Source of the DNA: Bacteroidia bacterium
GTDB lineage: Bacteria > Bacteroidota > Bacteroidia > AKYH767-A > OLB10
NCBI GenBank assembly: GCA_013001815.1
Contig: JABDLV010000141.1
Location: 1 to 48,073, forward strand
Length of the DNA: 48,073 nucleotides
Direction of reading: 5' to 3'
The translations under genes were made by a program, and so were the position numbers. Of the stretch, positions 3,841 through 48,073 are shown piece by piece (positions within the stretch are counted from its first letter, which is position 1; each line of letters starts with the position of its first letter). The notes under the pieces were generated by a model that did no database searches, was not told the DNA's origin, and saw nothing but the letters and a program-made list of their open reading frames with translations.

Positions 3841-4695
3841 ATGAAAAAAATTATTTTATTCTTATTAGTTGTATGTTTTGTTGGCATAGACATTAACTCT
3901 GCACAAGCACAAAATGTATTAGATGGTGTTTATGTAAAAGAACATGCTCAATTTAGACGAGTAGTACCATTTGCTCATTTAAGAGAAGCAGATGTGATGT
4001 GGTCTAAAAGAATATGGAGAGTTATAGATTTAGATGAGAAATTGAATCTTCCTTTTAGATACCCTGCAAGTAAGAGTATGGCAGATAGAGCATCATTAAT
4101 TGATGTTATTATGGATGCTGTTGAAGAAGGTACTTTAACTGCATATAGCTCTATTGATGATGAATTTACATTGCAATTAACCAAAGATGAAATTGAAAAA
4201 GTTGGCGGTGCAGGTGTTGATTCTACTCAAATTACAGATCCAGACCCTCCTTACTTAACAAGAGATACTGTTATTAAAAGAGAATTTTCCAGAGATAAAG
4301 TAATTGCTTATCGTATTAAGGAAGATTGGTTTTTTGACAAGCAACGTTCTGTTATAGAAAGTAGACTAATTGGAATTGCTCCAATGATGTATGCCGAAGA
4401 TGACCAGGGAGAAATTAGAGAAGGAAACATTAGAATTCCACTGTTTTGGATATACTATCCTGAAGCAAGAAATATGTTGGTAAATGCAGAAGTGTATAAC
4501 AGAGGAAATGATGCAGAAAGAAGAACCTACGATGATGTATTTCAAAAAAGAATGTTCAATAGCTATATCTTTAAAGAATCTAATGTATTTGACAGAAGAA
4601 TTGAAGAATACAAAACAGGAATAGATGCTTTATTAGAAGCAGAAAGAATTAAGCACGAGATTATAAATCTTGAGCACGATTTATGGGAGTTTTAA
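3841..4695 (+). CDS. gldN: GldN, T9SS/gliding periplasmic ring protein
   Basis: Periplasmic protein that forms the ring with GldK (PorN in Porphyromonas). It has a Sec signal peptide (MKKIILFLLVVCFVG, cleavage likely after AQA), then conserved stretches VLDGVYVKEHAQFRRVVPFAHLREADVMW, KRIWRVIDL and PLFWIYYPEARNML, ending in an Arg/Glu-rich helix and DLWEF. The G-rich run at 3832-3836 four bases before the ATG is one of the few Shine-Dalgarno-like sequences in the window. It is the last gene of the run and is followed by a terminator hairpin. Length (284 aa) is typical. Confidence 0.94.
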   Translation: MKKIILFLLVVCFVGIDINSAQAQNVLDGVYVKEHAQFRRVVPFAHLREADVMWSKRIWRVIDLDEKLNLPFRYPASKSMADRASLIDVIMDAVEEGTLTAYSSIDDEFTLQLTKDEIEKVGGAGVDSTQITDPDPPYLTRDTVIKREFSRDKVIAYRIKEDWFFDKQRSVIESRLIGIAPMMYAEDDQGEIREGNIRIPLFWIYYPEARNMLVNAEVYNRGNDAERRTYDDVFQKRMFNSYIFKESNVFDRRIEEYKTGIDALLEAERIKHEIINLEHDLWEF

Positions 4696-26658: not shown

Positions 26659-28431
26659 CTATTTCTTAGGGGTATAGGTAGTACTCAAAACTTCAAATTC
26701 TGTTCTGCGATTTTTTTGGTGAGCCTCTTCTTTTTCAGCTTCGCTTCCCATTCTACTAATTTCTTTATCGGCAATTCTTAGGTCTTGCTCCCCTCTCCCT
26801 TCTGATGTTAATCTGTCTTCAGGAATTTTCTTAGATATTAAATAATCTACAACCGACTTGGCCCGCCTGTTGGACAATTTTTGGTTATATGGATCTGGCG
26901 CACGTGAATCAGTATGTGCTATTAATTTAATAGTAATGTTTGGATTCTCTTCTAATGTTCTAACTAGATCATCTAATGCAATTTTGGATTCAAATCGCAA
27001 AGTAGCCTTATCTAAATCATAAAATATTTTTGGCAAATCATATTTCTTTCCAACTACAAAAGCCTCCTTTTTAATACGAATTATTTTTTTAAAAGGTGGG
27101 TCTTTAGAAATATCCACATCTTTAAAATTAATCGTCTTTGGGATGTAATCATCCTTCAATGCAGTAATTTTGCATATTAAGTTTGAAGAAATAATATTAG
27201 TCAGTTTTCCCTTGATATCGGTAATACCGCTTGTGCTCCCATCATTACAAGTAGCAATCTTAACTAAAACAGAATCAAGTGGGTTTTCAGTTAAGCTATC
27301 TATAACAGTTATCTCAATAATATTCGGATTATTAGTTCCCTTGAAAAAATAGATGTCGTCATTACCTTTTCCACCTGGACGGTTTGAACAAAAATAGCCA
27401 CTATCACCTTCACTGAAAAAAGTTATTCCAAAATCATCTAAAGGCGAATTTATTGGATCGCCAATATTAACCGGAAAATTCCATTTTCCTAATTCACTGC
27501 GAAACGTCTTATAAATATCTAATCCTCCTAGTCCTTTATGTCCATCAGATGCAAAGTGAAGTGCATCATCAACATTAATAGTCGGAAATATTTCATTGCC
27601 TTCAGTATTTATACCCGGTCCTAGATTTTTTGCGGCACCCCAAGTACCGTCATACAATCTATACCTAACATACAAGTCCATGCCACCTATTCCACCTGGC
27701 ATATCAGAACTAAAAATAAGTCGGTTTCCGTCTTCAGATATTGTTGGGTGAGCACAACTATATTCCGGATGGTTGTATTCAAACTCATTCTTTTTATCCT
27801 TTCTCCATACACCATTCGTTTCAGTGAACGATATTATTATTAAGTTCAATGTATCCTCTGAACTCAAACTGTCATTATTTTGAGTTAAATACATTTTTTT
27901 CCCATTATTAGTGAAGGTTACAACACCATCATGATAATCTGTATTTAAAAGAGAATCTTCAAATATCCATGGAATGCATTTTTCTAAGCTCTCAGGTTTT
28001 GAAAAAGTCTGATCTTCTTTTAGATAACTGCAAAACATATCCATAAGTGGTCTATTATTATTCTTCTTTTGATATTTTATATAATTAGACCTGTTTTTAT
28101 TCGCAGATGCAAAGACAATTCTTGTGCTTACATACTCCTCTGTATCTGTTACAACTATGCTAGGACTAAAGTCATCCTCTTTAGTATTTACACTTATATT
28201 CTTTATTTCATAAGAACCGAAAATATTACTAGCATCATTTTCACCATTAACAAAATCCCCAATTATTTGCTCCTTTGCTTGTAATAGTTCATTAATCTTA
28301 CTTGTCTGCTCTTTTAGTATCTCATTTTTTTTCGCATTAATCTGTTGTGTGATTTGCTCATTACAGGAAAAAGCAAACACAGTTAGTGCTAATACTAAAT
28401 ATTTAAAATATGATACAATTCTGTTTTTCAT
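26659..28431 (-). CDS. PD40/OmpA lipoprotein, T9SS-associated (proximal cassette)
   Basis: Predicted outer-membrane lipoprotein (lipobox FAFSC, Cys23) facing the periplasm. After a lysine-rich coiled coil (about 28-60) comes a PD40/WD40-like beta-propeller (about 80-370), with blades marked by DDFSPSIVV, HPTISEDGNRLIFSSDMPGGIGGMDLYV and YFCSNRPGGKGNDDIYFF. A beta-sandwich regulatory-like domain follows (about 375-465). The OmpA peptidoglycan-binding domain (about 470-590) has the key Asp and Arg in KLIAHTDSRAPDPYNQKLSNRRAKSV. This is the order in PorE of Porphyromonas, but without PorE's N-terminal TPRs. It starts 21 bp after the PorP/SprF gene. Role (inference): anchor linking a T9SS outer-membrane complex to peptidoglycan. 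Confidence 0.88.
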   Translation of the reverse strand: MKNRIVSYFKYLVLALTVFAFSCNEQITQQINAKKNEILKEQTSKINELLQAKEQIIGDFVNGENDASNIFGSYEIKNISVNTKEDDFSPSIVVTDTEEYVSTRIVFASANKNRSNYIKYQKKNNNRPLMDMFCSYLKEDQTFSKPESLEKCIPWIFEDSLLNTDYHDGVVTFTNNGKKMYLTQNNDSLSSEDTLNLIIISFTETNGVWRKDKKNEFEYNHPEYSCAHPTISEDGNRLIFSSDMPGGIGGMDLYVRYRLYDGTWGAAKNLGPGINTEGNEIFPTINVDDALHFASDGHKGLGGLDIYKTFRSELGKWNFPVNIGDPINSPLDDFGITFFSEGDSGYFCSNRPGGKGNDDIYFFKGTNNPNIIEITVIDSLTENPLDSVLVKIATCNDGSTSGITDIKGKLTNIISSNLICKITALKDDYIPKTINFKDVDISKDPPFKKIIRIKKEAFVVGKKYDLPKIFYDLDKATLRFESKIALDDLVRTLEENPNITIKLIAHTDSRAPDPYNQKLSNRRAKSVVDYLISKKIPEDRLTSEGRGEQDLRIADKEISRMGSEAEKEEAHQKNRRTEFEVLSTTYTPKK

Positions 28432-28452
28432 AACAAATGAAACTATACTTAA

Positions 28453-29412
28453 TTAAAAATATCTAATGGATTTAATTCCATAGTCTTTGATAAAATCATA
28501 ACCAAGTGTAAATTCATGAGAACCAATATTGAGGTCGGTGCAATTACAAATATTAAAGTCATAAGAATACCCTAATCTGATTTTAGGCGTGAATTGGTAA
28601 GATGTTAAAAGTGCTATTGCATCTCCGGTTCTATATGAAGATCCAACCCAAATCTTTTTATCTAGTAAAGCATTAATATTTAAATCAAACTCGACAGGAG
28701 AACCATGTACTGTTTTGATCATGATTGTTGGTTTTAATTTAATTTTCTGATTCAAATCAAAAACATAACCTGCAGCTATATAATGATGCCAACTTTCCAT
28801 ATTTACATCACTAACAACTGAATTGTCGCTTAAAGGGTCAATAGCACTTTCAATCAATCTGGGAACAGACCAACCAACATAAAAATTAGATGAGTCAGAA
28901 TAGTAAATTCCAAACCCTGCCCTGGGAACAGATTTACCCGGAGTATCTTCCAAAAATAATGGATCAACCGTTGCACCACCGCAACAATCTAAATCTGAAT
29001 AGTCCTCTTGCAATCGGCCAACACCTCCACTTAATCCAAAGGACAAAATGCTGTTATATGTTACCGGTAATTTATATGCAAATGTTCCATTAACCGTAAA
29101 CAGTTTTGTAATTCCTATTTTTTCATTTAACACAGATAATCCAACTCCAATATTTTTTGATTTAACCGGTGAATGAATAGAAAATGTTTGTGTTTTTGGT
29201 GCACCCTCAATTCCAGTCCATTGATTTCTATACAACAATACGGATGATATAAAATCGTGAGAACCCGCATAAGCCGGATTGATGAACATTTCATTATACA
29301 TATACTGCGTAAACTGCTCATCATATTGTGCACTTGCATTTGATGTTACAAGCACGAATAATATAATTGCGCAAAGAGCAACCTTTAATTTTCCGAATAT
29401 TTTATACATCAT
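28453..29412 (-). CDS. PorP/SprF-like T9SS outer-membrane protein (proximal cassette)
   Basis: Barrel protein of the PorP/SprF family. In Flavobacterium, SprF is needed for secretion of the giant adhesin SprB. A Sec signal peptide ends in SNASAQ, followed by the family signature YDEQFTQYMYNEMFINPAYAGS, RNQWTGIEGAPKTQTFSIHSP and GVGLSVLNEKIG. Later RLGYSYDFN and GSHEFTLGYDF lead to a terminal Phe (SIRYF). ATG 29412 gives 319 aa, matching the 318-aa paralogue at 37684; ATG 29409 and ATG 29436 are alternatives. Its gene is 29 bp after the giant gene and 21 bp before the PD40/OmpA gene. Confidence 0.93.
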   Translation of the reverse strand: MMYKIFGKLKVALCAIILFVLVTSNASAQYDEQFTQYMYNEMFINPAYAGSHDFISSVLLYRNQWTGIEGAPKTQTFSIHSPVKSKNIGVGLSVLNEKIGITKLFTVNGTFAYKLPVTYNSILSFGLSGGVGRLQEDYSDLDCCGGATVDPLFLEDTPGKSVPRAGFGIYYSDSSNFYVGWSVPRLIESAIDPLSDNSVVSDVNMESWHHYIAAGYVFDLNQKIKLKPTIMIKTVHGSPVEFDLNINALLDKKIWVGSSYRTGDAIALLTSYQFTPKIRLGYSYDFNICNCTDLNIGSHEFTLGYDFIKDYGIKSIRYF

Positions 29413-29441
29413 AATTATTTTTTTCAAATAACACATCAATT

Positions 29442-32400
29442 TTATTTTCGTTTTAACAATATGAAACCATTTATAGGCTCACTCCCATCTCCTTTATCAA
29501 ATTCATAATAATAGGTTCCATCATGCAATTCCTTCCCGTTAAGCACAGGTCCGGTATTTGAAGTTCCATCCCATGTATTGTCATATCCAGCCATCTCATA
29601 CACACAATTTCCCCATCTGTTAAATATTCTTAACTCATTCTCCGGATATTCTTCAGCACACTTAATTTCGAGTACATCGCCAATTAAATCACCATTGGGT
29701 GAAAGACATTGAGGCACACATACATCGCAATCACCAGCAACTTTAATAAATACAGTGGCAGTATCACAACATATGGGTATACCGTCATCGCAAATAAGGT
29801 AAACAAGAGTGTCTGGTCCAAGAAAATCAAAAAACGGTATGTAACTAATTTGACCGGTAATATTATCTACAGAAGCTATTCCATTACTCGGAAAGGAAAC
29901 TATGCTTACGGATGTACTATCAACAAAACCATCTACATCAAATGTATCATTCGCTGCTACATTAATATCAATTGCAATGTTCTTATCGGTTGTTACTGAA
30001 TCATCCATCGCAGTTGGGCAATCATTAACTGAATTTACCAATAGTCTCACTGTGGCAGTGTCACAGTTAACAACTAAACATCCGGTATCACACACTGAAT
30101 AAGTAAATGAATCTACACCAAAGTAATTTACTTCAGGTATATAAGTTACAGTTCCCAAAATATTATCAACCGTATAATTTCCTTTTGCCGGAGCATCTAC
30201 AACAACTAAACTTGAGGCATCAATCTTTCCTTCAGGATCAATATCATTAGACAATACAAAAATTGTTACGGGAGTGTCTTCAGCCATACTAGCTGTATCA
30301 TCAATTGCACTAAGAGGCAAATTAATGCAACAATTAATAGTGTCCAATACATTTAATACTAATGTATCAGTACTAATTCCACATTGGTTGCTAATTGTCC
30401 AAACCAGAGTATTAGAACCTGTTGAAAGACCGGTTACCAAAGTAGTAGCGGAATTTGTATCAACAATCATAGCATTACCTGAAATTACCGACCAAACTCC
30501 GTTCTCTCCAGCACCTGGTGCATTAGCACTTAATGAAGTTGTAGTTATGGTATCGCATAATAATTGATCCGCACCGGCATTGGCTATTGGAAGTGGACAA
30601 GACAAAACGGTCAAAATTACGTTTGCCGTATCACAACATACCGGTAGTCCGAAATCACAAACCAAATAACTTAATTGATCATTGCCAATAAATCCTGAAT
30701 TTGGAGTGTATGTGATTTGCCCTGTAATTGGATTTACAGTGGCGACTCCATTTAATGGTCCTGATATAATTGCAACAGAGGATGAATCTAAACCATTATC
30801 ATCTGTATCATTTGCCAATGGATTAAAGGTTATAGCTGTATTCTCCAATGTAGTATCACTATCTGAAACTGCCTGTGGGCACTGATTAACTATAGGTAAT
30901 GAATCTACAACTATGGTAATATTTGCTGAATCACAACACACAGGTAATCCAAAATCACAAACTCTATAACTTAATAGATCATTGCCTACAAAACCAGCAT
31001 TGGGAGTGTATGTGATTTGACCGGTAACCGGATTTACAGTAGCTACGCCATTTATAGGTCCGGATAGAATAACAACAGATGATGGATCCAAACCATTATC
31101 ATCTATATCATTGGCTAACGGGTCAAAAGTGAAAGTTGTATTCTCTAATGTAGTATCGTTATCTGCAACTGCATCTGGGCATTGATTTCCTATTATTATA
31201 GAATCTACTACTATAGTTATGATTGCAGAGTCACAACAAATCGGCATTCCAAAATCGCAAACCGAATAACTTAATTGATCAGTACCCACAAAACCTGCAT
31301 TGGGAGTGTATGTGATTTGTCCCGTAATTGAATTTACTGTGGCTACTCCATTTAAAGGTCCCGCTAGTATTGCAACAGATGAAGGATCTAAACCATTATC
31401 ATCTGTATCATTTGCCAATGGATCAAAAGTGAAAGTTGTATTCTCTAATGTTGTATCAAAATCTGCAACTGCATCTGGACATTGATTCGGCATAGGTATA
31501 GAATCTACTACTATGTTTATGATAGCAGTGTCACAACATACCGGTAATCCAAAATCACAAACCAAATAACTTAATTGTTCATTGCCAACAAAACCTGTAT
31601 TTGGAGTGTACGTAATTTGACCGGTAACCAAATCAACTGTTGCTGCTCCATTAAGAGGTCCTGACAATATTACAACAGATGAAGGATCTAAACCATTATC
31701 ATCTGTATCATTTGCCAATGGATCAAAAGTGAAAGTTGTATTCTCTAATGTTGTATCAAAATCTGCAACTGCATCCGGGCATAGATTATCTATAACTATA
31801 GAATCTACAACTATTGTTACGTTGGCTGAATCACAACATACGGGCACTCCAAAATCGCACACTTTATAACTTAACTGATCAATACCAATGAAACCTGCAT
31901 TTGGTGTGTATGTTATTTGACCGGTAACCGGATCAGCTGTGGCTACTCCATTTAATGGCCCTGATAATATTAGAACTGATGATGGATCTAAACCATTATC
32001 ATCTGTGTCATTGGCTAATGGATTAAATGTGAAAGTTGTATTCACTAATGTTGTATCACTATCTGCTACTGATTGTGGGCATTGATTAACTGCAGGATCT
32101 ATAGTTATTACAACAATTGCTGTATCTGTTCCACCATTGCCATCAGATACTATATAGATTAATGTATCCACCCCAGTAAATCCAGTGTTTGGAGTGTATA
32201 TCACAGAGTCTCCATTTGCCACAATTGCCGTTCCATTATTTGGTCCTGAAATAATTGTGGTTACTAGTGGATCTCCATCCGGGTCTGTATCATTCGCTTG
32301 TACATTAATTGTAACTGGAACTCCTACATTCGTTGATGCAGTGTCATCTATTGCAATCGGTGGATTACCTCCTCCAACTCCTACATTTATTGTTACAACT

Positions 32401-35045
32401 GCAGTATCCAATCCACCATTCCCATCTGACACTACATAGGTCAATATATCAGTTCCAATAAATCCTGGATTCGGAGTGTACACGATCGAATCTCCGTTTA
32501 ACACCGTTGCTGTGCCATTTAATGGTGGGGTTAAAATAGTTGTAACTAGCGGATCTCCATCCGGGTCTGTATCATTGGCTTGTACATTAATTGTAACTGG
32601 AACTCCTACATTCGTTGATGCAGTGTCATCTATAGCAACCGGTAGATTATTTCCTCCTCCAACTCCTACATTTATTGTTACAACTGCAGTATCCAATCCA
32701 CCATTCCCATCTGACACTACATAGATCAATATATCAGTTCCAACAAATCCTGGATTCGGAGTGTACACGATCGAATCTCCGTTTAACACCGTTGCAGTAC
32801 CATTTATTGGTGGAGACAAAATAGTTGTAACTAGTGGATCTCCATCCGGGTCTGTATCATTGGCTTGTACATTAATTGTAATTGGAACTCCTACATTTGT
32901 TGATGCAGTGTCATCAATCGCAACCGGTAGATTATTTCCTCCTACAACTTCTACATTTATTGTTACAACAGCAGTATCCAATCCACCATTCCCATCAGAT
33001 ACAACATAAGTTAATATTTCTATACCTATAAATCCAGGATTCGGAGTGTATGCAATCGAATCTCCGTTAAGCACCGTTGCAGTACCATTTATTGGTCCGG
33101 AAATAATTGTCGTTACTAATGGATCTCCATCAGGATCCGTATCATTGTTTTGTACATTTATTGTAACCGCTGTTCCTTGTGTTGTTGATACAGAATCATC
33201 TATAGCAACCGGTGGATTATTTCCTACTCCTACATTTATTGTCACAACAGCAGTATCTAATCCACCATTCCCATCAGATACAATATAGGTCAATATATCA
33301 GTTCCTAAAAATCCAGGATTTGGAGTGTATACAATCGAATCTCCATTTAACACTGTTGACGTACCATTTATTGGTCCGGAAATAATTGTTGTTACTAATG
33401 GATCTCCATCAGGATCCGTATCATTGTTTTGTACATTTATGGCTATGGCAGCTCCTTGTGTTGTTGATACAAAATCATCTATAGCAACCGGTGGATTATT
33501 AACTGAATTTACAGAAATAAGAACCATTGCAGTATCACAGATTGGAATGGTATTACAGATTACATAACTAAAACTATCAACCCCACTAAAATTTTGATTT
33601 GGTGTATAAGAAATTAAACCGGTTACATTATTTACAGTTACTGTACCATTCAAAGGACCTGAGCTTACGGATAAAGATGAAGTATCAATACTATTGTTGG
33701 GATCAGTATCATTATTAAGCACAGGAATATTAACAATACCTCCTGCATTTACCGAAACAAAATCATCTACTGCATTTGGACCTTGAATACCTCCGGTTGG
33801 ACATATATTGCCATTATCATCAACAAAACCTATTACTAAAAATGTTCCATCCGTACTGTTTTGATCTGGATTTGGATACGAGCCTAAATGTCCAAAATCA
33901 CTTTTTGTTGCATTAATGTTATTTAAAATGTCATCGGAACAACTTGCATGTATATTTGCGTCTTGATTCCCGTTAACTAAAAAATACCAGTCATTTCCAA
34001 TGTTGCCTAAGTTAATCACTAAAATATCTCCAGGATGTGTATTGGTATTGATATAAGGATTAGTTCCACTAGAATTGGGGCCAACACTAACAGTAGCACC
34101 CGGAGGTCCATCATAAATAACGGTCATTTCAACAATTTTCCCATCACAATCACATGGACAAGGAGGCAAGGGAAAAACCGAACCACAACTATTGGGTTGA
34201 CTAAAATCACTTCCACATGGACCTAAAGTATATCCTTCAGATAATTTTTTGCACAAATAAGATTCTTTTACGCATTTCTGAGTGCCATTATCACACATTA
34301 TAATCTTATCTGGATATGAAGGGCAAATAAGACTTACAACTGTAACAGTATGATTTGCGGTAGCTGTTAATCCATTTGCATCTGTTACCGTAACGGTATA
34401 AGATGTGGTTGCTGTTAAATTTATCGCAATGTTTTGAGTAGTAGCACCATTACTCCATAAAAATGAATATGGCGGAGTGCCACTTGTAACTGAACTAGTA
34501 ATAATTGCTGAAGCAGCACCCAACAAACCATTAATTCCACCTGCAGGACAAATATTTCCTTTATCATCTTTATATCCAATTACTAAAAAAGTACCATTGT
34601 TATTGTTCTGATTAGGATTTGGAAAATTTCCAAGACTACCAAAAGAACCATTAGTTGAATTTACGTTATTCAATAAGTCATCAGAACAACTTGTATGGAA
34701 TTGGGCATCAGATGAACCATTGACTGATATGTACCAATTGCTACCTATATTTCCAGCGGCAAGAGATAATGTATCACCTTGTTGTGTATTATTAAATGTT
34801 AATACCGGATTGCTTCCACTAGAATTTGAACTAACTTCAACTGTGGCATTATTCGGCCCGCCATAAATTACTGTTATATCAATAATTTTACCATCACAAT
34901 CACAAGGAGGTGGCCAATAGCCAACTTCTTGATCAGGACAAACACTAATAACCGGTACTGGAAGATTCCCACTACTTGTGTAACCAATTTGGTTAGTACA
35001 AATAAGAAAAATAAAACAAATGAAAACTGAATAAATACGTGCCAT
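29442..35045 (-). CDS. Giant multi-repeat surface protein, T9SS type B cargo (1867 aa)
   Basis: Secreted adhesin-like protein. Order: signal peptide (about 1-26). A Cys-rich domain (48-170) and its copy (298-419), separated by a SprB/PKD-like domain (about 174-237) and a short Cys-rich link. Six cadherin-like repeats of 93-95 aa (423-986). Five nearly identical 100-aa repeats (987-1482). A PKD-like domain (about 1483-1573). Two more cadherin-like repeats (about 1577-1771). A gliding-motility-associated C-terminal domain (1772-1867) with CLSPNGDLIGD, LRIFNRWGNCVYE, YDNTWDG and DGTYYYEFDKG, ending ILLKRK, the type B T9SS sorting signal. Ca-binding-like DTDPDGDP occurs in many repeats. It is upstream of, and probably cotranscribed with, its PorP/SprF and PD40/OmpA partners. 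The ligand is unknown. Confidence 0.95.
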   Translation of the reverse strand: MARIYSVFICFIFLICTNQIGYTSSGNLPVPVISVCPDQEVGYWPPPCDCDGKIIDITVIYGGPNNATVEVSSNSSGSNPVLTFNNTQQGDTLSLAAGNIGSNWYISVNGSSDAQFHTSCSDDLLNNVNSTNGSFGSLGNFPNPNQNNNNGTFLVIGYKDDKGNICPAGGINGLLGAASAIITSSVTSGTPPYSFLWSNGATTQNIAINLTATTSYTVTVTDANGLTATANHTVTVVSLICPSYPDKIIMCDNGTQKCVKESYLCKKLSEGYTLGPCGSDFSQPNSCGSVFPLPPCPCDCDGKIVEMTVIYDGPPGATVSVGPNSSGTNPYINTNTHPGDILVINLGNIGNDWYFLVNGNQDANIHASCSDDILNNINATKSDFGHLGSYPNPDQNSTDGTFLVIGFVDDNGNICPTGGIQGPNAVDDFVSVNAGGIVNIPVLNNDTDPNNSIDTSSLSVSSGPLNGTVTVNNVTGLISYTPNQNFSGVDSFSYVICNTIPICDTAMVLISVNSVNNPPVAIDDFVSTTQGAAIAINVQNNDTDPDGDPLVTTIISGPINGTSTVLNGDSIVYTPNPGFLGTDILTYIVSDGNGGLDTAVVTINVGVGNNPPVAIDDSVSTTQGTAVTINVQNNDTDPDGDPLVTTIISGPINGTATVLNGDSIAYTPNPGFIGIEILTYVVSDGNGGLDTAVVTINVEVVGGNNLPVAIDDTASTNVGVPITINVQANDTDPDGDPLVTTILSPPINGTATVLNGDSIVYTPNPGFVGTDILIYVVSDGNGGLDTAVVTINVGVGGGNNLPVAIDDTASTNVGVPVTINVQANDTDPDGDPLVTTILTPPLNGTATVLNGDSIVYTPNPGFIGTDILTYVVSDGNGGLDTAVVTINVGVGGGNPPIAIDDTASTNVGVPVTINVQANDTDPDGDPLVTTIISGPNNGTAIVANGDSVIYTPNTGFTGVDTLIYIVSDGNGGTDTAIVVITIDPAVNQCPQSVADSDTTLVNTTFTFNPLANDTDDNGLDPSSVLILSGPLNGVATADPVTGQITYTPNAGFIGIDQLSYKVCDFGVPVCCDSANVTIVVDSIVIDNLCPDAVADFDTTLENTTFTFDPLANDTDDNGLDPSSVVILSGPLNGAATVDLVTGQITYTPNTGFVGNEQLSYLVCDFGLPVCCDTAIINIVVDSIPMPNQCPDAVADFDTTLENTTFTFDPLANDTDDNGLDPSSVAILAGPLNGVATVNSITGQITYTPNAGFVGTDQLSYSVCDFGMPICCDSAIITIVVDSIIIGNQCPDAVADNDTTLENTTFTFDPLANDIDDNGLDPSSVVILSGPINGVATVNPVTGQITYTPNAGFVGNDLLSYRVCDFGLPVCCDSANITIVVDSLPIVNQCPQAVSDSDTTLENTAITFNPLANDTDDNGLDSSSVAIISGPLNGVATVNPITGQITYTPNSGFIGNDQLSYLVCDFGLPVCCDTANVILTVLSCPLPIANAGADQLLCDTITTTSLSANAPGAGENGVWSVISGNAMIVDTNSATTLVTGLSTGSNTLVWTISNQCGISTDTLVLNVLDTINCCINLPLSAIDDTASMAEDTPVTIFVLSNDIDPEGKIDASSLVVVDAPAKGNYTVDNILGTVTYIPEVNYFGVDSFTYSVCDTGCLVVNCDTATVRLLVNSVNDCPTAMDDSVTTDKNIAIDINVAANDTFDVDGFVDSTSVSIVSFPSNGIASVDNITGQISYIPFFDFLGPDTLVYLICDDGIPICCDTATVFIKVAGDCDVCVPQCLSPNGDLIGDVLEIKCAEEYPENELRIFNRWGNCVYEMAGYDNTWDGTSNTGPVLNGKELHDGTYYYEFDKGDGSEPINGFILLKRK
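30600..32087 (-). repeat. Five near-identical 100-aa (300-bp) repeats, block B
   Basis: Encodes residues 987-1482. The units begin at residues 987, 1087, 1187, 1287 and 1387, so four are exactly 300 bp long and the fifth is a little shorter. Each has NQCP or NLCP at the start, LANDTDDNGLD in the middle and YxVCDFGxPxCCD near the end. The conserved DNA string ggagtgtatgt or its close variants recurs every 300 bases (near 30705, 31005, 31305, 31605, 31905). Confidence 0.92.
32088..33779 (-). repeat. Six cadherin-like repeats, period 279-285 bp (block A)
   Basis: Encodes residues 423-986 as six units of 93, 93, 95, 95, 95 and 93 aa. The consensus core is PVAIDDTAS.N.G.PVTINVQ.NDTDPDGDPLVTTI..., then ...NGTATVLNGDSIVYTPNPGF.GTDILTYVVSDGNGGLDTAVVTINV. 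Units 2-5 are almost identical. The first unit is more diverged and has Cys residues; the sixth lies between blocks A and B. Confidence 0.92.
33789..34154 (-). repeat. Second copy of the N-terminal Cys-rich domain in the 29442 gene
   Basis: Encodes residues 298-419 and is a diverged duplicate of residues 48-170 (34536-34904). Shared landmarks in both copies are CDCDGKI, VIY.GPP/NN.ATV, GNIG..WY..VNG, SCSDD.LNN.NAT/S, PNP.QN...GTFLVIG and D.KGNICP or D.NGNICP. Confidence 0.85.
34536..34904 (-). repeat. First copy of the N-terminal Cys-rich domain in the 29442 gene
   Basis: Encodes residues 48-170. The second copy is at 33789-34154, about 750 bp away. Cys and Asn positions and the end GNICPAGG/GNICPTGG are conserved between the two. 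Confidence 0.85.
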
Positions 35046-35444
35046 AATTTCTTTGTTTCAACCCTAACATTAAATTATTGTTCAATCAACATATTTTTAA
35101 TAAAAATCATTTGAGATTGAAAGAGAAACTAATTCTCTCAAAACCAAATAATACTAAAAACAGAAAAAATCTAAATTTTCCGGCCCACGAAGATTATATA
35201 GCTGAAAATCGAACAAAGAGGATTTAGCAAGATTTAATCCGCATTTCAACTATAATTTGCAAGCTAACAGGTTTTCAACAAAACAACAACTAAATTTCCA
35301 TCAAGGCTAATTCAAAATCTCTATAAAACAATGTATACAATTGAAAAACAGAAATGTAAGCCAAATCACCGTACACAGAGTTATTAACAATTTTTGGCTA
35401 AATTTTTTGTTGAAATAGAATATTTTACAAAAAGTCACAAAAAA
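35046..35444. other. Intergenic leader region of the giant gene at 29442
   Basis: About 400 AT-rich bases without a gene. It must hold the promoter of the giant gene, which is transcribed leftwards, because the upstream cassette is closed by a terminator at 35445-35466. I searched the minus strand for TAnnTTTG and found no exact match. A weak stem (AGAGAA at 35122-35127 with TTCTCT at 35133-35138) lies about 80-95 bases before the ATG. No tRNA or small RNA was recognised. Confidence 0.6.
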
Positions 35445-35466
35445 AGCCCTGTATTTCTACAGGGCT
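35439..35466 (-). terminator. Rho-independent terminator after the distal cassette
   Basis: The arms TACAGGGCT (35458-35466) and AGCCCTGTA (35445-35453) pair perfectly over nine bases with a four-base loop. On the minus strand a run of seven T follows (A-run 35439-35445 on plus). It lies 20 bp after the stop of the PorE-like gene at 35487. It separates the two three-gene cassettes. Confidence 0.92.
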
Positions 35467-35486
35467 CAAAACATATTTAAAGGTTT

Positions 35487-37661: not shown

Positions 37662-37683
37662 GGTTGTTCTTTTTTTAAGTTTT

Positions 37684-38640
37684 TTAGAAATATCTAATTG
37701 ATGAAATACCTTTTTTCTTGAAGTTAAAATCATATCCTAAGGAAATTTCATGTGAACCCGAAGTATGGTTACCTATATCCGTTATTGTATAATCATATGA
37801 ATATCCAATCCTAAATTGTGGTGATACATTTAAGGAACTAATTAATGCTATAGCATCACCGGTTCTATAGGAAGCACCAACCCAAATTATCTCGTTTATT
37901 AATGCATTCACATTAAAGTCCCATTCAACTGGAGCCCCAAATACTGCTTTAGTCATAATGGTAGGTTTAAGTTTTAAATTTTCTGACACAGGAAAAACAT
38001 ATCCCGCAGTAATATAATTGTGCCAGTTTTTTAAATTGACTTCATTGTTCACCTCAAAGTTATTTGTAGGGTCAATAGAACTTTCAATTAACCTTGGAAT
38101 TGACCATCCAACATAAAAACTGGGCTTCTGGTAATACATTCCAAAACCAGCCTTAGGAGCCATTTTGGTTGGAGTATCTTGCATAAATAAAGGATCAATA
38201 TTTACCCCATCCACAGGTGTTAATTCAGATAAGTTTTCTTGCAAACTGGTAAATCCACCTTGCAGTCCAAAAGAAAGAATTGCATCGTCACTAACCGGTA
38301 ATCGATAAGCATATGTACCCATAACAGAAAACTTTTTGGTTACCCCAATTTCTTCATTCATAATCGACATACCCAAACCAATTTTTTTCTTTTTTAGAGG
38401 AGCATGTATTGTAAACGTTTGCGTAGTAGGAGCTCCATCAATACCAACCCATTGGTCTCGGTAAAGCGCGAAAGTAGAAATGTAATCTCTAGACCCGGCA
38501 TACCCAGGGTTAATGAACATTTCATTATTCATATACTGCGAAAACATAGGATCATACTGCGCATTTGCATCTGACTTCGTCAGACAGAAAATTATACCTA
38601 TGAACATTACAATTTTTAAACTTCTTTTGAACTCTTTCAT
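37684..38640 (-). CDS. PorP/SprF-like T9SS outer-membrane protein (distal cassette)
   Basis: Close paralogue of the protein at 28453-29412. Signal peptide ending in DANAQ, then YDPMFSQYMNNEMFINPGYAGS, RDQWVGIDGAPTTQTFTIHAPL, GLGMSIMNEEIG, FYVGWSIPRLIESSIDP, GASYRTGDAIALISSLNVSP, RIGYSYDYT and SGSHEISLGYDF, with a terminal SIRYF. 318 aa. The family includes SprF, needed for SprB secretion, and PorP, part of a T9SS complex with PorE. The gene is 40 bp after the giant gene at 38681 and 22 bp before the PorE-like gene, so all three are probably cotranscribed. Confidence 0.94.
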   Translation of the reverse strand: MKEFKRSLKIVMFIGIIFCLTKSDANAQYDPMFSQYMNNEMFINPGYAGSRDYISTFALYRDQWVGIDGAPTTQTFTIHAPLKKKKIGLGMSIMNEEIGVTKKFSVMGTYAYRLPVSDDAILSFGLQGGFTSLQENLSELTPVDGVNIDPLFMQDTPTKMAPKAGFGMYYQKPSFYVGWSIPRLIESSIDPTNNFEVNNEVNLKNWHNYITAGYVFPVSENLKLKPTIMTKAVFGAPVEWDFNVNALINEIIWVGASYRTGDAIALISSLNVSPQFRIGYSYDYTITDIGNHTSGSHEISLGYDFNFKKKGISSIRYF

Positions 38641-38680
38641 CTTTTCTTATTTATCAATTAGAATTTATTGATTTTATTCT

Positions 38681-41600: not shown

Positions 41601-44600
41601 CCAACCAGTATGCTTACGGTGGCAGTGTCACAATAAATAGGTGTGCCATTATCGCAAATTACATATTGCAAGCTATCAAGACCATTGTATCCGAATGTTG
41701 GACTATACAATATATTTCCAGTACCTGGCTGAACAAATGCGATTCCATTTGATGGCGCACTAATTATAGTAATGGAGTTTGTATCTAAATCCATCTCAGG
41801 ATCAATATCATTTACTATTACAGCAATGGTATCAATCATATTCATGGCAACAGTTACGGTATCATTAACAGCAATTATTGGTGAATTAACCGGAATTATT
41901 GTTATAATTTGCCAAGCAGTGTCACAATTAATTGGATAACCAGTATCGCAAATAACATATTGCAATGAATCTAGTCCATTGTAATTAGTATTTGGCGTGT
42001 AAGTAATATCACCTGTAATTGGATCTACAGCAACTGTACCATTCAAAGGTAAAGTGCTAACAGAAACACTGGTGATATCTAAATTGCCATCTACATCACT
42101 ATCATTAGTTGCTGTAGCCAAAATAACTGGCGTATTCTCATTTGTTGATGCAGTATCTACAATAGCTATAGGTGGATCATTAACTGGTAATACATCTATG
42201 ATTACTATTGCCGTATCACATAAACCTGAAGAATCACAAGCCAGATACGTTATGGTATCACCTCCATTGTAGTTTGCATTTGGTGCATAGGTAATCGTAC
42301 CATCGCCATTGTTTATAGCAGAACCATTACTTGGTCCGCCAATTATCACCACACCCATAGAATCACCATTTGCATCAAAATCATTTACTATAACATCAAT
42401 TGTTCCAGTAGAGTCTTCAGATACCGTAAGATTATCATCAACTGCAATTGGTGGTAGATTAGTATTTGGTACTATTACATACACGGTTGCAGTATCACAT
42501 CCCTGAGGTACACCATTGTCGCAAATAACATATACAATTGTATCAATTCCACTTAAGAATGTAACATTAGGAGTATACACAATACTATCTCCATTACTAA
42601 CTGAGGCAACTCCGTTAAATGGGCCTGAAATTATAGTAGTAGTCAATGTATCACCATCTGGATCTATATCATTATTTTGTACATCAATATTTACTGGTAC
42701 TCCTGGGTCAGCAGTAGCATAATCATCTACAGCTATAGGATCATCATTAATTGGATCAACTATGAACAAAATAGTAGCTGTATCACAGTATACAGGCATT
42801 CCGGTATCGCATATCACATATACAGCACTATCCAAACCACTGAAGTCAGCATTTGGTGTGTAAGTAACCTCACCTGTTGATGAATTAACAGTTAATATTC
42901 CATTTACAGGTAGTGTTATAATATTGATACTACTAGTATCTAAATTATTGTCAATATCAATATCGTTTATTATAATACTTGCAGTAACAGAAGAGTCTTC
43001 ATTTACTGAAATAGTATCATTCACGGCAATAATCGGATCATTAACCGGAATTACAGTTATAAATATGGTAGCAGTATCACAATATATCGGCATACCTGAA
43101 TCACAAACTGAATACACAATGGTGTCCAATCCAACAAAGTTTGCAGTTGGAGTATAGCTTATGTTTCCAGTAATTGGATCTATCACAACACTTCCATTTG
43201 AAGGACCTGAATTCACAGTGATACTTGCAGGATTGATATTATTATCAGGGTCGATATCATTTACCGAAGGATTGAATATAACAGCAGAGTCCTCTGCTGT
43301 TGTAATCATATCATCAACTGCTATCAATGAGTCATTAACATCTATTACATTAATGATTACAGTTGCGGTATCGCAATAAACCGGTATTCCAAAGTCACAT
43401 ATCAGATAATCAAAGCTATCCAAACCAACATATCCGATACTTGGGGTGTAGGTCACAATTCCTGTTATAGGATCTACACTTACAGAACCATTCGAAGGAT
43501 TTGTTATCACCGTTACACTTGTAACATTCAAGTTTGAATCCACATCATAATCATTTGCAGGTACATTTATAGCAACCGGAATATCTTGATTGGTTGCTAC
43601 TGTATCATTTATCGCAACTGGTGGGTCATTAGCAGGAGTAACAGTAATAGTTACAACAGCTGTATCACACAGTACCGGTATTCCATTATCACAAACTACA
43701 TATGCAAATGAATCAACTCCATTAAAGTTGGCATTTGGTGTATATAGATATGAACCATCACTATTTAATACTAGCGTTCCATTAAACGTACCAAATACCG
43801 GAGTGGTATTTACAAATAAAGAATCTCCATCCGGATCTGTATCATTAGATAACACAGTGAATCCATTTAATGGGGTATCTTCAGAAGTACTTGCTGCATC
43901 ATCAACAGCCATTGGGTTGAAGTTTATATCCAACACATTAATTAGCACTAAGCCGGTATCGCAATAAATTGGAATTCCTTGGTCACATAACACATAGTAC
44001 AATGAGTCCATTCCCACAAAGAAAGGATTAGGGTTGTATGTAAGAAGCCCGGTAACAGGATCAAATACTGCTGTACCATTATATGGACCCATTATTACAT
44101 TTACACTACTTGAATCAATATTGCCGTCTACATCAATATCGTTAGCCAAAATCGCATAGGATACTGGTGAGTTTTCTGTTGTAGAGGTAGAATCCATTAT
44201 TGCAATAGGTGGATCATTAACCGGATTAACAGTCATATACACTAGAGCAGTATCACAAGCATTAAATGCATCACAAATAATATAAGTCAAAGTATCAAAT
44301 CCGTAAAAATCCGGATTTGGAACATAGGATATACTGTCTCCATTGATTACAGTTGCAGTACCATTCACACTTGGAACTACAATTATGGTTAACAATGAAT
44401 CTCCATCAATATCAAAATCATTTGCTTGAACATTTACTATTATTGAATCATCTTCATTTAACATCACGGTATCATTAACTGCAACCGGTGCATCATTTAC
44501 TCCACCAATATCAATATATACGAATGCTGTATCACATGCCGCAAAAGGATCGCATATTACATAAACTAAAGTGTCAAATCCGTTGTATGAAGGATTTGGT

Positions 44601-47600
44601 GTATATAATATACTGTCACCATTAAGAATACTAACTGAACCATTTGAAGGTCCGGATAAAACAGTGGTAGTTAACGTATCTCCATCAATATCTGTATCAT
44701 TCAATTGTACATTTATCACAACAGAAGAATCTTCAGGTGTTGCAGCTGCATCATCAACCGCAACAGGAGGATCATTTACTGGCAACACCGTTATTATTAC
44801 GGTTGCCGAACCTGTTGCACCATTTCCATCATCAATTAAATATACTAGTGTATCAGTTCCATTGAAATTTGGATTTGGAGTATATAATATTGAATCACCA
44901 TTTACAATCGAAGCAGTTCCATTAGATGGTCCGCTAGCTATCAAAACTGTAGTAAGTGAATCTCCATCAGTATCAAAGTCATTAATTAGTACATCAACAT
45001 AAACTAAAGAATCTTCATTCGTTGTTGCAGAATCATCAATAGCAACAGGTGCATCATTGATCGGATCAACTGTTATGATTACCGTTGCCGTATCCGTGCC
45101 ACCGTTTCCATCTGAGATTACATAAGTTAATGTGTCTGTACCATTAAAGTTGGCATTCGGGGTATAAGTGATTGAATCTCCATTTACCACTACAGCAGTT
45201 CCATTGCTTGGTCCGCTTAATATTGTTGTTGTTAATGCATCGCCATCTAAATCGGAATCATTTGATTGTACATTTACCGTTACAGGCGTATCTTCATTTG
45301 TTGTTGCTACATCGTCCAAAGCAACTGGAGCATCATTAATTGGTAACACATTGATAACCACAGTGGCTGACCCTGTTGCTCCGTTTCCATCATCAATTAC
45401 ATATACCAAGGTATCCGTACCATTGAAATTTGCATTTGGTGTATATAATATTGAGTCACCATTAACTATGATAGCACTACCATTTGATGGACCACTTGCA
45501 ACCAAGATAGTCGTTAATGTATCTCCATCAATATCAAAGTCATTGCTTAATACATTCACATAAACCGGTGTATCTTCATTAGTAGTTGCCATGTCATTCA
45601 CTGCAACAGGAGCATCATTAACTGGCAATACAGTTATTATAACAGTTGCAGAACCAGTCTCTCCATTACCATCAGAAATTATATAAATTAATGTATCAGT
45701 TCCATTGAAGTTGGCATTCGGAGTATATAGTATTGAGTCCCCACTTACAATAGCAACACTACCATTTGATGGACCACTTGATATCAAAATAGTTGTTAGC
45801 GTATCTCCATCAATATCAAAGTCATTGTTTAACACATCAACATAAACTGGTGTATCTTCATTTGTTATAGATGAATCATTTACAGCAACCGGTGGATCAT
45901 TAACCGGATTAACTGTTATTACTACGATTGCCGTATCAGTACCGCCATTACCATCCGAGATAACATAAGTTAATGTGTCGTTTCCGTTGAAGTTTGGATC
46001 CGGTGTATAGGTGATTGAATCACCATTTACTACTACTGCCGTACCATTGCTTGGTCCGCTTAAAATAGTTGTAGTTAATGCATCTCCATCTAAATCAGAA
46101 TCATTTGCCTGTACATCTACTGTTACCGGAGAATCTTCATTCGTAGTGCTTGTATCATCTACTGCTACCGGAGCATCATTAATTGGGTCAACAGTTATTA
46201 CAACTATTGCTGTATCGGTTCCACCATTACCATCTGAGATAACATAAGTCAATGTGTCGTTTCCATTGAAATTCGGATCTGGTGTATAGGTAATGGAATC
46301 TCCATTCACCACTAACGCTACACCATTGCTTGGTCCGCTTAGAATCGCAGTTGTCAATGCATCTCCATCTATATCAGAATCGTTTGCCTGAACATTTACA
46401 ACTACCGGAGTATCTTCATTTGTTGTGCTTGCATCATCAACTGCTACAGGAGCATCATTAACCGGATTAACTGTTATGACTACGGTTGCAGTATCAGCAC
46501 CTCCGAATGGATCAGTTATTATATACACAAGAGTATCAGTACCGTTAAAGTTAGGATTAGGAGTATAACTTATTGAATCACCATTTACTACGCTAGCAAT
46601 TCCGTTATTTGGACCGCTTAATATAGAAGTTGTGAATGGATCTCCATCAACATCTGAATCATTTAATTGAACATTTACAACTACAGTACTGTCTTCATCC
46701 GTATTAGTATTATCATCCAATGCAACAGGAGGATCGTTTGTACCGCCAACATTAATTATAAATATAGCCGTATCACATAAACCACCCGGATCACAAACCG
46801 AATAGGTTATGGTATCTAAACCGTTATAATTCAAATTGGGACTATACTGTATAGAATCACCTACTAATATAGCAGTACCATTCGCTGGACCACCAATAAT
46901 TGAAGTGGTTAATATATCTCCGTCCACATCTGAATCGTTTCCTTGAACATTGTATGTTACCGGTGTGTCCTCAGGGGTAAGGGTACCATCATCCAATGCT
47001 ACCGGTGCATCGTTAATTGGGTCAACCGTGATTACCACAGTTGCCGTATCCGTACCGCCATTGCCATCCGAGATAACATAGGTTAAGGTATCCGTTCCAT
47101 TAAAGTTCGGATCCGGAGAATAGGTGATGGAATCTCCATTCACCACTACTGCTGTGCCATTACTTGGTCCGCTTAATATCGTAGTTGTTAATGCATCACC
47201 ATCCAGGTCAGAATCGTTTGCTTGGACATCAACCGTTACAGGAGTGTCTTCATCTGTTGTATCTGCATCATCAACTGCAACCGGTGCATCATTGATTGGG
47301 TCAACGGTGATTACTACAATGGCTGTATCGGTTCCACCATTACCATCTGAGATAACATAGGTTAATGTGTCTGTACCATTAAAGTTCGCATTCGGAGTGT
47401 AAGTGATTGAGTCACCATTTACCACTACTGCTATACCATTGCTTGGTCCTGATAATATGGTTGTCGTTAAGGCATCGCCATCTAAATCAGAATCATTTGC
47501 TTGTACATCTACAGTTACAGGAGTATCTTCATCTGTTGTTGCTGTATCATCTACTGCTACAGGTGCATCGTTAATCGGATCAACAGTTATGATTACCGTT

Positions 47601-48073
47601 GCCGTATCCGTACCGCCATTGCCATCTGAGATAACATAGGTTAATGAGTCTGAACCAATAAAGTTCGCATTCGGAGTGTAAGTGATTGAGTCACCATTTA
47701 CTACTACCGCTGTACCATTGCTTGGACCAGAAAGAATAGTTGTTGTTAACGCATCGCCATCTAAATCAGAATCATTCGCTTGTACATCTACAGTTACAGG
47801 AGTATCTTCATCTGTTGTTGCTGCATCATCCACTGCAACCGGAGCATCATTGATTGGGTCAACCGTGATTACCACAGTTGCCGTATCGGTTCCGCCATTT
47901 CCGTCTGAGATAATATAAGTTAAGGTATCGTTTCCATTGAAGTTGTCATTCGGAGTATAAGTGATAGAATCACCATTTACTACTACTGCTGTGCCATTAC
48001 TTGGTCCGCTTAATATCGTAGTTGTCAATGCATCACCATCCAGGTCAGAATCGTTTGCTTGTACATCAATTGT
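38681..48073 (-). CDS. Giant repeat surface protein, T9SS type B cargo, 5' end outside window
   Basis: Partial gene: at least 3130 residues are visible and the frame is open to the right edge, so the start, signal peptide and further repeats lie beyond 48073. Apart from the end it is a chain of 31 complete and one partial cadherin-like/Ig-like repeats of 92-98 aa. Upstream units (nearest the edge) are Cys-free, with NDAPVAVDD, DVQANDSDLDGDALTT and YVISDGNGGTDTA. Later units are more diverged and carry a Cys pair (YVICDxGxPxxCDTA). The last 92 residues are the gliding-motility-associated C-terminal domain: FVPNAFSPNGDLIYD, LKIFNRWGNVVYE, YDNSWDGKA and DGTYYYVLDLGDG, ending VVIKRK, a type B T9SS signal. 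Role (inference): very long surface or gliding adhesin exported through SprF-like partners. Confidence 0.95.
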   Translation of the reverse strand, partial: TIDVQANDSDLDGDALTTTILSGPSNGTAVVVNGDSITYTPNDNFNGNDTLTYIISDGNGGTDTATVVITVDPINDAPVAVDDAATTDEDTPVTVDVQANDSDLDGDALTTTILSGPSNGTAVVVNGDSITYTPNANFIGSDSLTYVISDGNGGTDTATVIITVDPINDAPVAVDDTATTDEDTPVTVDVQANDSDLDGDALTTTILSGPSNGIAVVVNGDSITYTPNANFNGTDTLTYVISDGNGGTDTAIVVITVDPINDAPVAVDDADTTDEDTPVTVDVQANDSDLDGDALTTTILSGPSNGTAVVVNGDSITYSPDPNFNGTDTLTYVISDGNGGTDTATVVITVDPINDAPVALDDGTLTPEDTPVTYNVQGNDSDVDGDILTTSIIGGPANGTAILVGDSIQYSPNLNYNGLDTITYSVCDPGGLCDTAIFIINVGGTNDPPVALDDNTNTDEDSTVVVNVQLNDSDVDGDPFTTSILSGPNNGIASVVNGDSISYTPNPNFNGTDTLVYIITDPFGGADTATVVITVNPVNDAPVAVDDASTTNEDTPVVVNVQANDSDIDGDALTTAILSGPSNGVALVVNGDSITYTPDPNFNGNDTLTYVISDGNGGTDTAIVVITVDPINDAPVAVDDTSTTNEDSPVTVDVQANDSDLDGDALTTTILSGPSNGTAVVVNGDSITYTPDPNFNGNDTLTYVISDGNGGTDTAIVVITVNPVNDPPVAVNDSSITNEDTPVYVDVLNNDFDIDGDTLTTILISSGPSNGSVAIVSGDSILYTPNANFNGTDTLIYIISDGNGETGSATVIITVLPVNDAPVAVNDMATTNEDTPVYVNVLSNDFDIDGDTLTTILVASGPSNGSAIIVNGDSILYTPNANFNGTDTLVYVIDDGNGATGSATVVINVLPINDAPVALDDVATTNEDTPVTVNVQSNDSDLDGDALTTTILSGPSNGTAVVVNGDSITYTPNANFNGTDTLTYVISDGNGGTDTATVIITVDPINDAPVAIDDSATTNEDSLVYVDVLINDFDTDGDSLTTVLIASGPSNGTASIVNGDSILYTPNPNFNGTDTLVYLIDDGNGATGSATVIITVLPVNDPPVAVDDAAATPEDSSVVINVQLNDTDIDGDTLTTTVLSGPSNGSVSILNGDSILYTPNPSYNGFDTLVYVICDPFAACDTAFVYIDIGGVNDAPVAVNDTVMLNEDDSIIVNVQANDFDIDGDSLLTIIVVPSVNGTATVINGDSISYVPNPDFYGFDTLTYIICDAFNACDTALVYMTVNPVNDPPIAIMDSTSTTENSPVSYAILANDIDVDGNIDSSSVNVIMGPYNGTAVFDPVTGLLTYNPNPFFVGMDSLYYVLCDQGIPIYCDTGLVLINVLDINFNPMAVDDAASTSEDTPLNGFTVLSNDTDPDGDSLFVNTTPVFGTFNGTLVLNSDGSYLYTPNANFNGVDSFAYVVCDNGIPVLCDTAVVTITVTPANDPPVAINDTVATNQDIPVAINVPANDYDVDSNLNVTSVTVITNPSNGSVSVDPITGIVTYTPSIGYVGLDSFDYLICDFGIPVYCDTATVIINVIDVNDSLIAVDDMITTAEDSAVIFNPSVNDIDPDNNINPASITVNSGPSNGSVVIDPITGNISYTPTANFVGLDTIVYSVCDSGMPIYCDTATIFITVIPVNDPIIAVNDTISVNEDSSVTASIIINDIDIDNNLDTSSINIITLPVNGILTVNSSTGEVTYTPNADFSGLDSAVYVICDTGMPVYCDTATILFIVDPINDDPIAVDDYATADPGVPVNIDVQNNDIDPDGDTLTTTIISGPFNGVASVSNGDSIVYTPNVTFLSGIDTIVYVICDNGVPQGCDTATVYVIVPNTNLPPIAVDDNLTVSEDSTGTIDVIVNDFDANGDSMGVVIIGGPSNGSAINNGDGTITYAPNANYNGGDTITYLACDSSGLCDTAIVIIDVLPVNDPPIAIVDTASTNENTPVILATATNDSDVDGNLDITSVSVSTLPLNGTVAVDPITGDITYTPNTNYNGLDSLQYVICDTGYPINCDTAWQIITIIPVNSPIIAVNDTVTVAMNMIDTIAVIVNDIDPEMDLDTNSITIISAPSNGIAFVQPGTGNILYSPTFGYNGLDSLQYVICDNGTPIYCDTATVSILVGFINLPPVANMDTSTTDQNIPVSTNVLANDTDPNNNIATVTMIGGPSNGLANINSASGLASYLPNFGFFGYDTITYVVCDAGVPVYCDTSIWVITIENENDPPIANDDAAITPPNTSTIIDVQFNDSDPDGDTLSTFVIQNPNYGTVTVLNGDSIIYTPFTGVNSVIDSFYYMVCDNGIPGLCDTALVTVTIPIINIGPVASNEQVNIQEEDTAYVNVLANDYDPNGDSLIVTVVGGPSNGTATLAADGSLVYIPNTNYNGLDTLYYSVCDSLGNCDTAFTVINIIPVNDPPIAVDDIDSTLSNTPIVVAVLANDTDVEGNIDVTSVNVINGPTNGTVTVDPITGDVTYTPSLTFGGIDTFTYVVCDLGLPVYCDTAVVTINVTLSNVPPVVVNDTVSTNEDTPVTISVLSNDFDPDNNIDTSSISIVSGPLNGTAVLDTVTGEILYTPNPNFNGVDSLVYQFCDTGMPIYCDSATVYINVLPVNDPPIAVNDAVTVNEDNPITVSVSTNDTDLDGNLDTLSVTIISAPNNGTALVNAATGNITYTPNSNFNGVDTIVYQICDSGAPVLCDTALLIITVNPVNDPPVAVDDTVNTNEGAAVVIDPLVNDTDIEGGIDPGSVGIIGGPNNGTATVDPVTGQITYTPAPYFNGVDTIVYVVCDSGAPVLCDTATIFITVGAVNNPPIAVDDADTTNEDTPITISVLSNDFDADGNIDPTSVTVIGGPNNGMTIVDPITGAITYIPNMDFFGTDTFTYVICDLGTPIYCDTAVVIITVLPVNDPPVAVNDTVMAQQGSPKDITVDGNDYDLDGSVDPTTVNIIGGPTNGTATVDPITGVITYVPNPNFFGIDSITYVICDNGSPVLCDTATIYINVLPVIETNVFVPNAFSPNGDLIYDFWVIDGIENYPNNVLKIFNRWGNVVYEKKGYDNSWDGKANAGLLVIGDDLPDGTYYYVLDLGDGNKSKAGFVVIKRK
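45059..45337 (-). repeat. Repeat unit resembling the edge block, set among a different subfamily
   Basis: This 93-aa unit has DALTTTILSGPSNG and YVISDGNGGTDTATV like the units at the right edge. Its neighbours on each side (two upstream, one downstream) belong to a subfamily with VLxNDFDxDGD, ILYTPN and GNGATGSATV. It looks like a unit copied or moved from the homogenised block. Confidence 0.75.
47015..48073 (-). repeat. Homogenised 279-bp repeats at the right edge
   Basis: Three complete units (47573-47851, 47294-47572, 47015-47293) and the partial unit at the edge differ by only a few residues over 93 aa. The period is exactly 279 bp. The next unit (46739-47014, 92 aa) is clearly more diverged. 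Confidence 0.92.

Follow-up and report, generated by a model that had tools for sequence, protein, structure and literature searches.

The window analysed here (48,073 nucleotides) is the whole of contig C124 from a 2.69-Mb Bacteroidota MAG of 266 contigs (88% complete, 6.4% contamination). It carries the T9SS core operon gldK-gldL-gldM-gldN and, on the other strand, two three-gene cassettes (Table 1). In both cassettes, a cargo gene is directly followed by a PorP/SprF-like carrier gene and a PorE-like anchor gene on the same strand, with intergenic gaps of 40 and 22 bp in cassette 1 and 29 and 21 bp in cassette 2, given the likely ATG starts, as expected for three-gene operons. Here, the start of P0004 is the ATG 22 bp past the P0005 stop, while P0004 residue numbers count from an upstream ATG at 37733. 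Because a hairpin follows P0004 and a 441-bp gap precedes P0003, the cassettes look like two transcription units. Terminator-like sites were found nine times against 5.8 expected, and the hairpin behind P0004 is the sole one with 10 pairs.

Table 1. Features of the window, and carrier-OmpA fusions in relatives.
Feature	Coordinates	Strand	Remarks
T9SS core operon gldK-gldL-gldM-gldN	16..4695	+	TIGR03525 599, TIGR03513 240, TIGR03517 403, TIGR03523 223 bits, all above cut-off
Cassette 2 chimeric PorE-like anchor P0001	26659..28431	-	PD40 propeller and OmpA; without TPR
Cassette 2 PorP/SprF-like carrier P0002	28453..29412	-	TIGR03519 269.8 bits; ends ..KSIRYF
Cassette 2 cargo P0003	29442..35045	-	signal-peptide-like N-terminus, Big_9 repeats, type B CTD
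Inter-cassette gap, 441 bp	35046-35486		contains the terminator-like hairpin; precedes P0003
Terminator-like hairpin with T-run	35444..35467	-	about 20 bp 3' of the P0004 gene
Cassette 1 PorE-like anchor P0004	35487..37661	-	lipobox-like N-terminus, TPR, PD40 propeller, CarboxypepD_reg, OmpA
Cassette 1 PorP/SprF-like carrier P0005	37684..38640	-	TIGR03519 287 bits; ends ..SSIRYF
Cassette 1 cargo P0006	38681..48073	-	5' end cut by contig end; PF17963, PF13585, TIGR04131
Carrier-OmpA fusion examples	L131:3929-5728, L138:3938-5803, L143:5981-7936, L263		

The cargo P0006 consists of about 32 Big_9/tandem-95 Ig-like repeats (32 stretches of PF17963) and a C-terminal type B T9SS sorting domain (CTD), while its N-terminus and signal peptide are invisible because the contig end cuts the gene. 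P0003 combines two related N-terminal modules with about 13 Big_9 repeats and a type B CTD, and its N-terminus is signal-like as judged by eye. Both proteins qualify as type B cargo by TIGR04131 (58.9 bits for P0006 and 49.2 bits for P0003; curated cut-off 35) and match CHU_C (PF13585) with 97.7 and 82 bits (cut-off 27). Their sorting domains are related, the last 100 residues of P0003 being 54% identical to P0006.

The carriers P0005 and P0002 are full-length matches to the PorP/SprF family (TIGR03519 287 and 270 bits; cut-off 90.6) and share 58% identity across 317 residues. The AlphaFold model of P0005 shows a barrel (mean pLDDT 87, about 90 within the barrel) whose last strand comprises residues 296–305. 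The tail with residues 309–318, including IRYF, lies outside the barrel and is disordered in this single-chain model, which demonstrates no docking. In a Foldseek search with P0005, the best T9SS matches were to two translocon entries, 6h3i (TMq 0.59) and 8gl6 (TMq 0.61), in each case to chain F, which we take to be PorV. A PDB sequence search with the carrier gave nothing but chance matches, designed repeat proteins among them. The C-tail of SprF is periplasmic and bonded to GldK through its cysteines (PMC12635249). Neither P0002 nor P0005 has a cysteine among its last 20 residues; judged by the Cys-X-Cys motif, the window carriers are not SprF.

PD40 and OmpA exceed the Pfam cut-offs in both anchors, and P0004 possesses all four of TPR, propeller, CRD, and OmpA. 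The PorE model NF052230 scores P0001 at 330 and P0004 at 394 bits against a cut-off of 600. By this curated model, both are PorE-like only and not PorE. In P0001, the domain scan yielded neither a TPR nor a CarboxypepD_reg match; a long helix is predicted at the N-terminus in place of the TPR, and the gap to P0002 is so short that it leaves no space for this domain. A stand-alone PorE is encoded on contig C89 (C89:441-2420, 536 bits). The triad Asp576/Asn584/Arg591, through which the OmpA domain of PorE binds DAP (PMC7192894), is intact in P0001 (D508/N516/R523), in P0004 (D676/N684/R691), and in the C89 protein.

Duplication of the cassette and origin of the second anchor

Trees were built from about 110 PorP/SprF-family loci of 19 other same-family genomes together with the loci of the own genome. 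In the carrier tree, P0002 and P0005 are sisters (98) within a clade, A, that is represented once in most other genomes, and the two window CTDs likewise group together in the CTD tree (99; one long-branch row present). A second tripartite cassette, clade B, also occurs family-wide, with the own-genome copy at C11:13.3-16.4 kb, and the A and B lineages are concordant among the carrier, anchor, and CTD trees. By these trees, the window pair arose when the clade A cassette, which occurs throughout the family, was duplicated in this lineage. The duplication is old, since besides the 58% identity of the carriers and 54% of the CTDs, third codon positions are only 38–47% identical between the cassettes. 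In the own-genome clade B anchor (L052:13308-15209, G000:C11), HTN replaces HTD, and thus the triad Asp is lost.

The first 127 bases of the window are identical to the last 127 of contig C11, which ends in a PorP-family gene. Therefore, porP and gldKLMN are most likely contiguous across C11 and the window, which would place three tripartite cassettes around the T9SS core operon. Relatives, too, have the clade A unit on one contig with the porP preceding gldK (e.g., G005:C25 and G015:C225). SprA is also encoded in the own genome (2722 bits).

The two parts of P0001 have different relatives. Its propeller (residues 73–389) shares 50% identity with P0004 and 34% with the stand-alone PorE, while its OmpA domain (residues 460–590) is 76–77% identical to the C89 PorE and 45% to P0004. 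Correspondingly, in the propeller segment tree P0001 is sister to P0004 inside clade A (96 and 98), and in the OmpA segment tree it falls among the PorE orthologues as sister to the C89 PorE (91 and 100). AU tests reject placing the P0001 propeller with PorE (p = 0.0056) and placing the OmpA domain with P0004 (p = 5.6e-5) or with P0004 and clade A (p = 3.3e-4). As the C89 protein groups with PorE orthologues in both segment trees, PorE is the donor of the OmpA domain. By the segment analysis, P0001 is thus a chimera of a clade A propeller and the OmpA domain of the genome's own stand-alone PorE that has lost the TPR. Replacement of the whole gene had been considered, as the full-length anchor tree puts P0001 with the C89 PorE, and was discarded when the segments yielded a mosaic instead. 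The exchange of the OmpA domain and loss of the TPR, with the propeller kept alongside its carrier lineage, suggest that the propeller is likely the carrier-binding part and OmpA a generic grip.

These results refine the first-pass annotation of the locus. The order of cargo, PorP/SprF, and PD40/OmpA gene, found twice on one strand with the gaps given above, is confirmed by gene order and profile matches, and the carriers are indeed paralogous over their whole length. The lipoproteins had been described in the same way, which holds for the propellers but neither for the OmpA domains nor for the TPR. Consequently, the proposed tandem duplication applies to the clade A cassette in this lineage, but simple co-duplication does not account for the second anchor, whose wall-binding domain was replaced.

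Carrier tails, following genes, and carrier-OmpA fusions

The relation between carrier tail and following gene was surveyed in a family census (19 same-family relatives and the own genome) and a wider census that added 60 loci from the order and class beyond this family, the class-wide loci being drawn from the strongest carrier matches. A PorE-like gene encoding propeller and OmpA follows 34 of the 37 family carriers with RYF, RFF, or RWF tails and all 19 such carriers outside the family. The same clade includes another carrier, outside the RYF set, that ends in PRYL and has a PorE-like neighbour too. The three family exceptions keep their P0004 orthologue at another genomic site (598, 592, and 440 bits). 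Carriers with NVRFL-type tails precede gldK (33/33), and those with CPxF tails precede gldJ (26/28; gldJ on C79 was identified by TIGR03524). Tail cysteines occur in none of the 37 RYF carriers of the family and in 1 of 20 outside, while all NVRFL- and CPxF-type carriers have them. Cysteines in the gldK- and gldJ-linked carriers and their near absence from RYF carriers fit the tie between SprF cysteines and GldK (PMC12635249).

When the tree is computed with the tail removed, the RYF carriers all fall into a single clade (99), and therefore tail and anchor linkage arose together once. Read as a repeated correlation, the link gives a tiny Fisher p, yet this reading was abandoned because the carriers form one clade and an independent-pairs test is not significant. 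On this comparative evidence, the linkage of RYF tail and PorE-like gene is one old, conserved association. The DAP-binding triad is kept in 33 of the 34 family anchors that follow RYF carriers, the own-genome clade B anchor being the sole loss.

Several loci depart from these three classes or extend them. In one clade member (L258), a single suggestive case, the downstream propeller gene lacks an OmpA domain and the carrier tail reads SPRL. Directly 5' of gldJ, a PorP/SprF gene whose product has a two-Cys tail (..CPxF) is located at L054:6459-9031 (G000:C79), with orthologues family-wide and in other families; possibly, this protein is a dedicated GldJ partner. A third cassette type comprises a cargo, a ..CPxY carrier, and a TPR/propeller protein with an OmpA-like domain (L055:3183-6166 in G000:C45, L139, L145, L163, and L166), and the Asp of the peptidoglycan-binding triad is kept in 0 of 19 of these OmpA-like domains. 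Carriers ending in ..IPCERY (L147, L150, L152, L153, and L170) precede a PorE-like gene whose OmpA triad is intact, and no type B cargo was recognised upstream of them.

Further, in 15 family loci, and at least once in another family (L263), a PorP/SprF barrel runs in one frame through an extended linker into a C-terminal portion, which is OmpA-like in the scanned fusions with clear hits. These fusions score up to 157 bits for PF11751 and up to 64 bits for PF00691 (L131, L138, L143, and L134), while a Pfam OmpA match is absent from L156 and L169. Wherever the upstream side of a family fusion is visible, it holds a type B cargo gene, and a PorE gene downstream is absent. Five of the 15 family fusions and L263 have the triad; the remainder look degenerate. 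Thus, carrier and wall-binding domain are joined in one chain next to a cargo gene, which supports anchoring. Our limited literature search found no published description of a SprF-OmpA fusion, which is weak evidence of absence.

Proposed export and retention of the cargo

In relatives, the parts of such a system are known. SprF is the carrier of SprB, P. gingivalis PorE binds peptidoglycan (PMC7192894), and the PorE-PorP-PG1035 complex with its direct PorE-PorP and PorP-cargo contacts is proven biochemically (PMC9143113). We consider it likely that each window unit exports one adhesin and anchors it statically to the cell wall. The giant Ig-repeat cargo would cross the outer membrane via the SprA/Sov translocon by means of its type B CTD, and the adjoining PorP/SprF-like barrel would take over the CTD and retain the cargo on the surface. 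On the periplasmic side, the propeller of the PorE-like protein would bind the free Cys-less ..RYF C-tail of the barrel, and possibly another periplasmic surface too, while its OmpA domain would grip peptidoglycan. The clade A unit was duplicated in tandem in this lineage, and its second anchor gave up the TPR and took on the OmpA domain of the core PorE. For the window proteins, we infer the complex, the propeller/tail interface, and the immobility of the adhesins from these relatives and from the conserved gene linkage. The sub-cut-off PorE scores of both anchors, the missing triad Asp of the own-genome clade B anchor, and the single origin of the link between tail and PorE-like gene speak against this reading.

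How far each cargo has partners of its own can be judged within the genome, where 19 type B sorting domains compare with six PorP/SprF-family genes. Of the 19 places matched by TIGR04131, only four have a neighbouring carrier and 15 have none, although some of these 15 may sit at contig ends. Most cargos are therefore orphans that share carriers or are separated from them by contig ends, and the rule "one cargo, one private set" fails genome-wide. Sharing has precedent, as one carrier serving several cargos is documented (PMC12618676). The earlier idea of a self-contained unit thus survives as inheritance in a block, evident from the linkage counts and the concordant trees, but not as a general provision of each cargo with its own partner. 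A private anchor per cargo is only partly supported, and this pairing, which the first pass had taken for the less described part, was already published (Gorasia 2022; Paillat 2025). PD40/OmpA genes unlinked to cargo, which had been named as evidence against the proposal, do occur in the own genome (C89, C258, and C254) and count against it in part.

The position of the cassettes next to gldKLMN, together with the co-purification of small amounts of PorK/PorN with PorE-PorP-PG1035, of which PG1035 is dispensable (PMC9143113), could also mean that PorE-like proteins are accessories of the export machine that mainly hold the PorK/N (GldK/N) ring or the translocon to the wall, with adhesin linkage being secondary. 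This is unlikely, as a separate PorE on C89 and a separate porP upstream of gldK are there for that role, and the cassette carriers belong to a different clade from the latter. Alternatively, the cargos might be mobile gliding adhesins whose carriers attach to the moving track like SprF, the PorE-like protein acting as a brake or biogenesis factor. Although GldJ and GldK are both encoded in the genome and the cargo is similar to repeat adhesins, we regard this as very unlikely: both carriers are devoid of the C-tail cysteines that link SprF and thereby the moving adhesin to GldK (PMC12635249), which argues against attachment to the gliding track, and in F. johnsoniae the mobile type B substrates have no adjoining porE-like gene, while a PorE-linked one is static (PMC12618676).

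As a further alternative, the three genes might be neighbours by shared regulation alone, with anchors and carriers freely interchangeable among cassettes. The OmpA domain was evidently exchanged between anchors in the own genome, and carriers cross-talk in F. johnsoniae (PMC12618676). However, propeller and carrier lineages are matched in all family A and B cassettes, and the three genomes with an unlinked anchor still keep the orthologue, which makes free interchange improbable. That the P0001 mosaic is itself an artefact of assembly or contamination, as the fragmented and partly contaminated MAG might suggest, seems extremely unlikely, since P0001 is one intact frame within a 48-kb contig and the closest relative of its OmpA segment is the PorE of the own genome. 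With 24% of its nucleotides differing from C89, the segment is not a misjoined copy.

Beyond static anchoring in the window, the census invites a more tentative reading, which we hold to be possible though somewhat short of an even chance: every PorP/SprF-type C-tail may be a docking tag that selects the partner encoded by the next gene, with RYF choosing wall anchors, single-Cys NVRFL choosing GldK, and double-Cys CPxF choosing GldJ, the propeller being the specificity part and OmpA an interchangeable grip, exchanged in P0001 and fused to the carrier itself in other lineages. If this were true, the static or moving fate of an adhesin could be read from about 12 carrier residues. The P0001 swap, the fusions, and the three classes of tail and partner bear on how surface type B proteins of Bacteroidota are held and why some of them move, and offer specific and cheap tests of adhesin retention versus movement.

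The cassette kind of cargo, carrier, and PorE-like protein is already known (PMC9143113, PMC12618676), and the window units are additional members of it. New are the lineage-specific duplication of clade A with a clade B cassette and porP-gldKLMN adjoining, the chimeric anchor P0001 with its PorE-derived OmpA domain, the distinction in sampled relatives between a PorE-linked RYF carrier clade and two Cys-tailed clades followed by gldK or gldJ, and the carrier-OmpA fusions in some relatives. In F. johnsoniae, six porP-like genes lie beside porE-like genes, and a 2022 study proposed that type B proteins which do not move are anchored to the wall (PMC9143113). A 2025 study tied five operons of this kind, among them Fjoh_3952-3951-3950, to static behaviour, and the Fjoh_3952 CTD is static by microscopy (PMC12618676). 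For these loci, the PorE homologue is the proposed static anchor (PMC12618676, PMC9143113). The window cassettes contain the same three gene types as Fjoh_3952-3951-3950 in the same order of cargo, carrier, and PorE-like gene. Compared with the F. johnsoniae loci, as far as these can be likened by their published description, the window unit differs in being tandem-duplicated, in lying near gldKLMN, and in having a TPR-less chimera as its second anchor. The same three protein classes form PorE-PorP-PG1035 in P. gingivalis. There, only one PorP and one type B protein are described, whereas the window has PorE-like paralogues in addition to the separate PorE on C89, a comparison again made by description. 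Like F. johnsoniae SprB-SprF, the window units combine a giant repeat cargo bearing a type B CTD with an SprF-like carrier directly after it. In contrast to SprF, which has a Cys-X-Cys tail disulfide-bonded to GldK and no porE-like neighbour (PMC12635249, PMC9143113), the window carriers have a Cys-less tail and a PorE-like neighbour.
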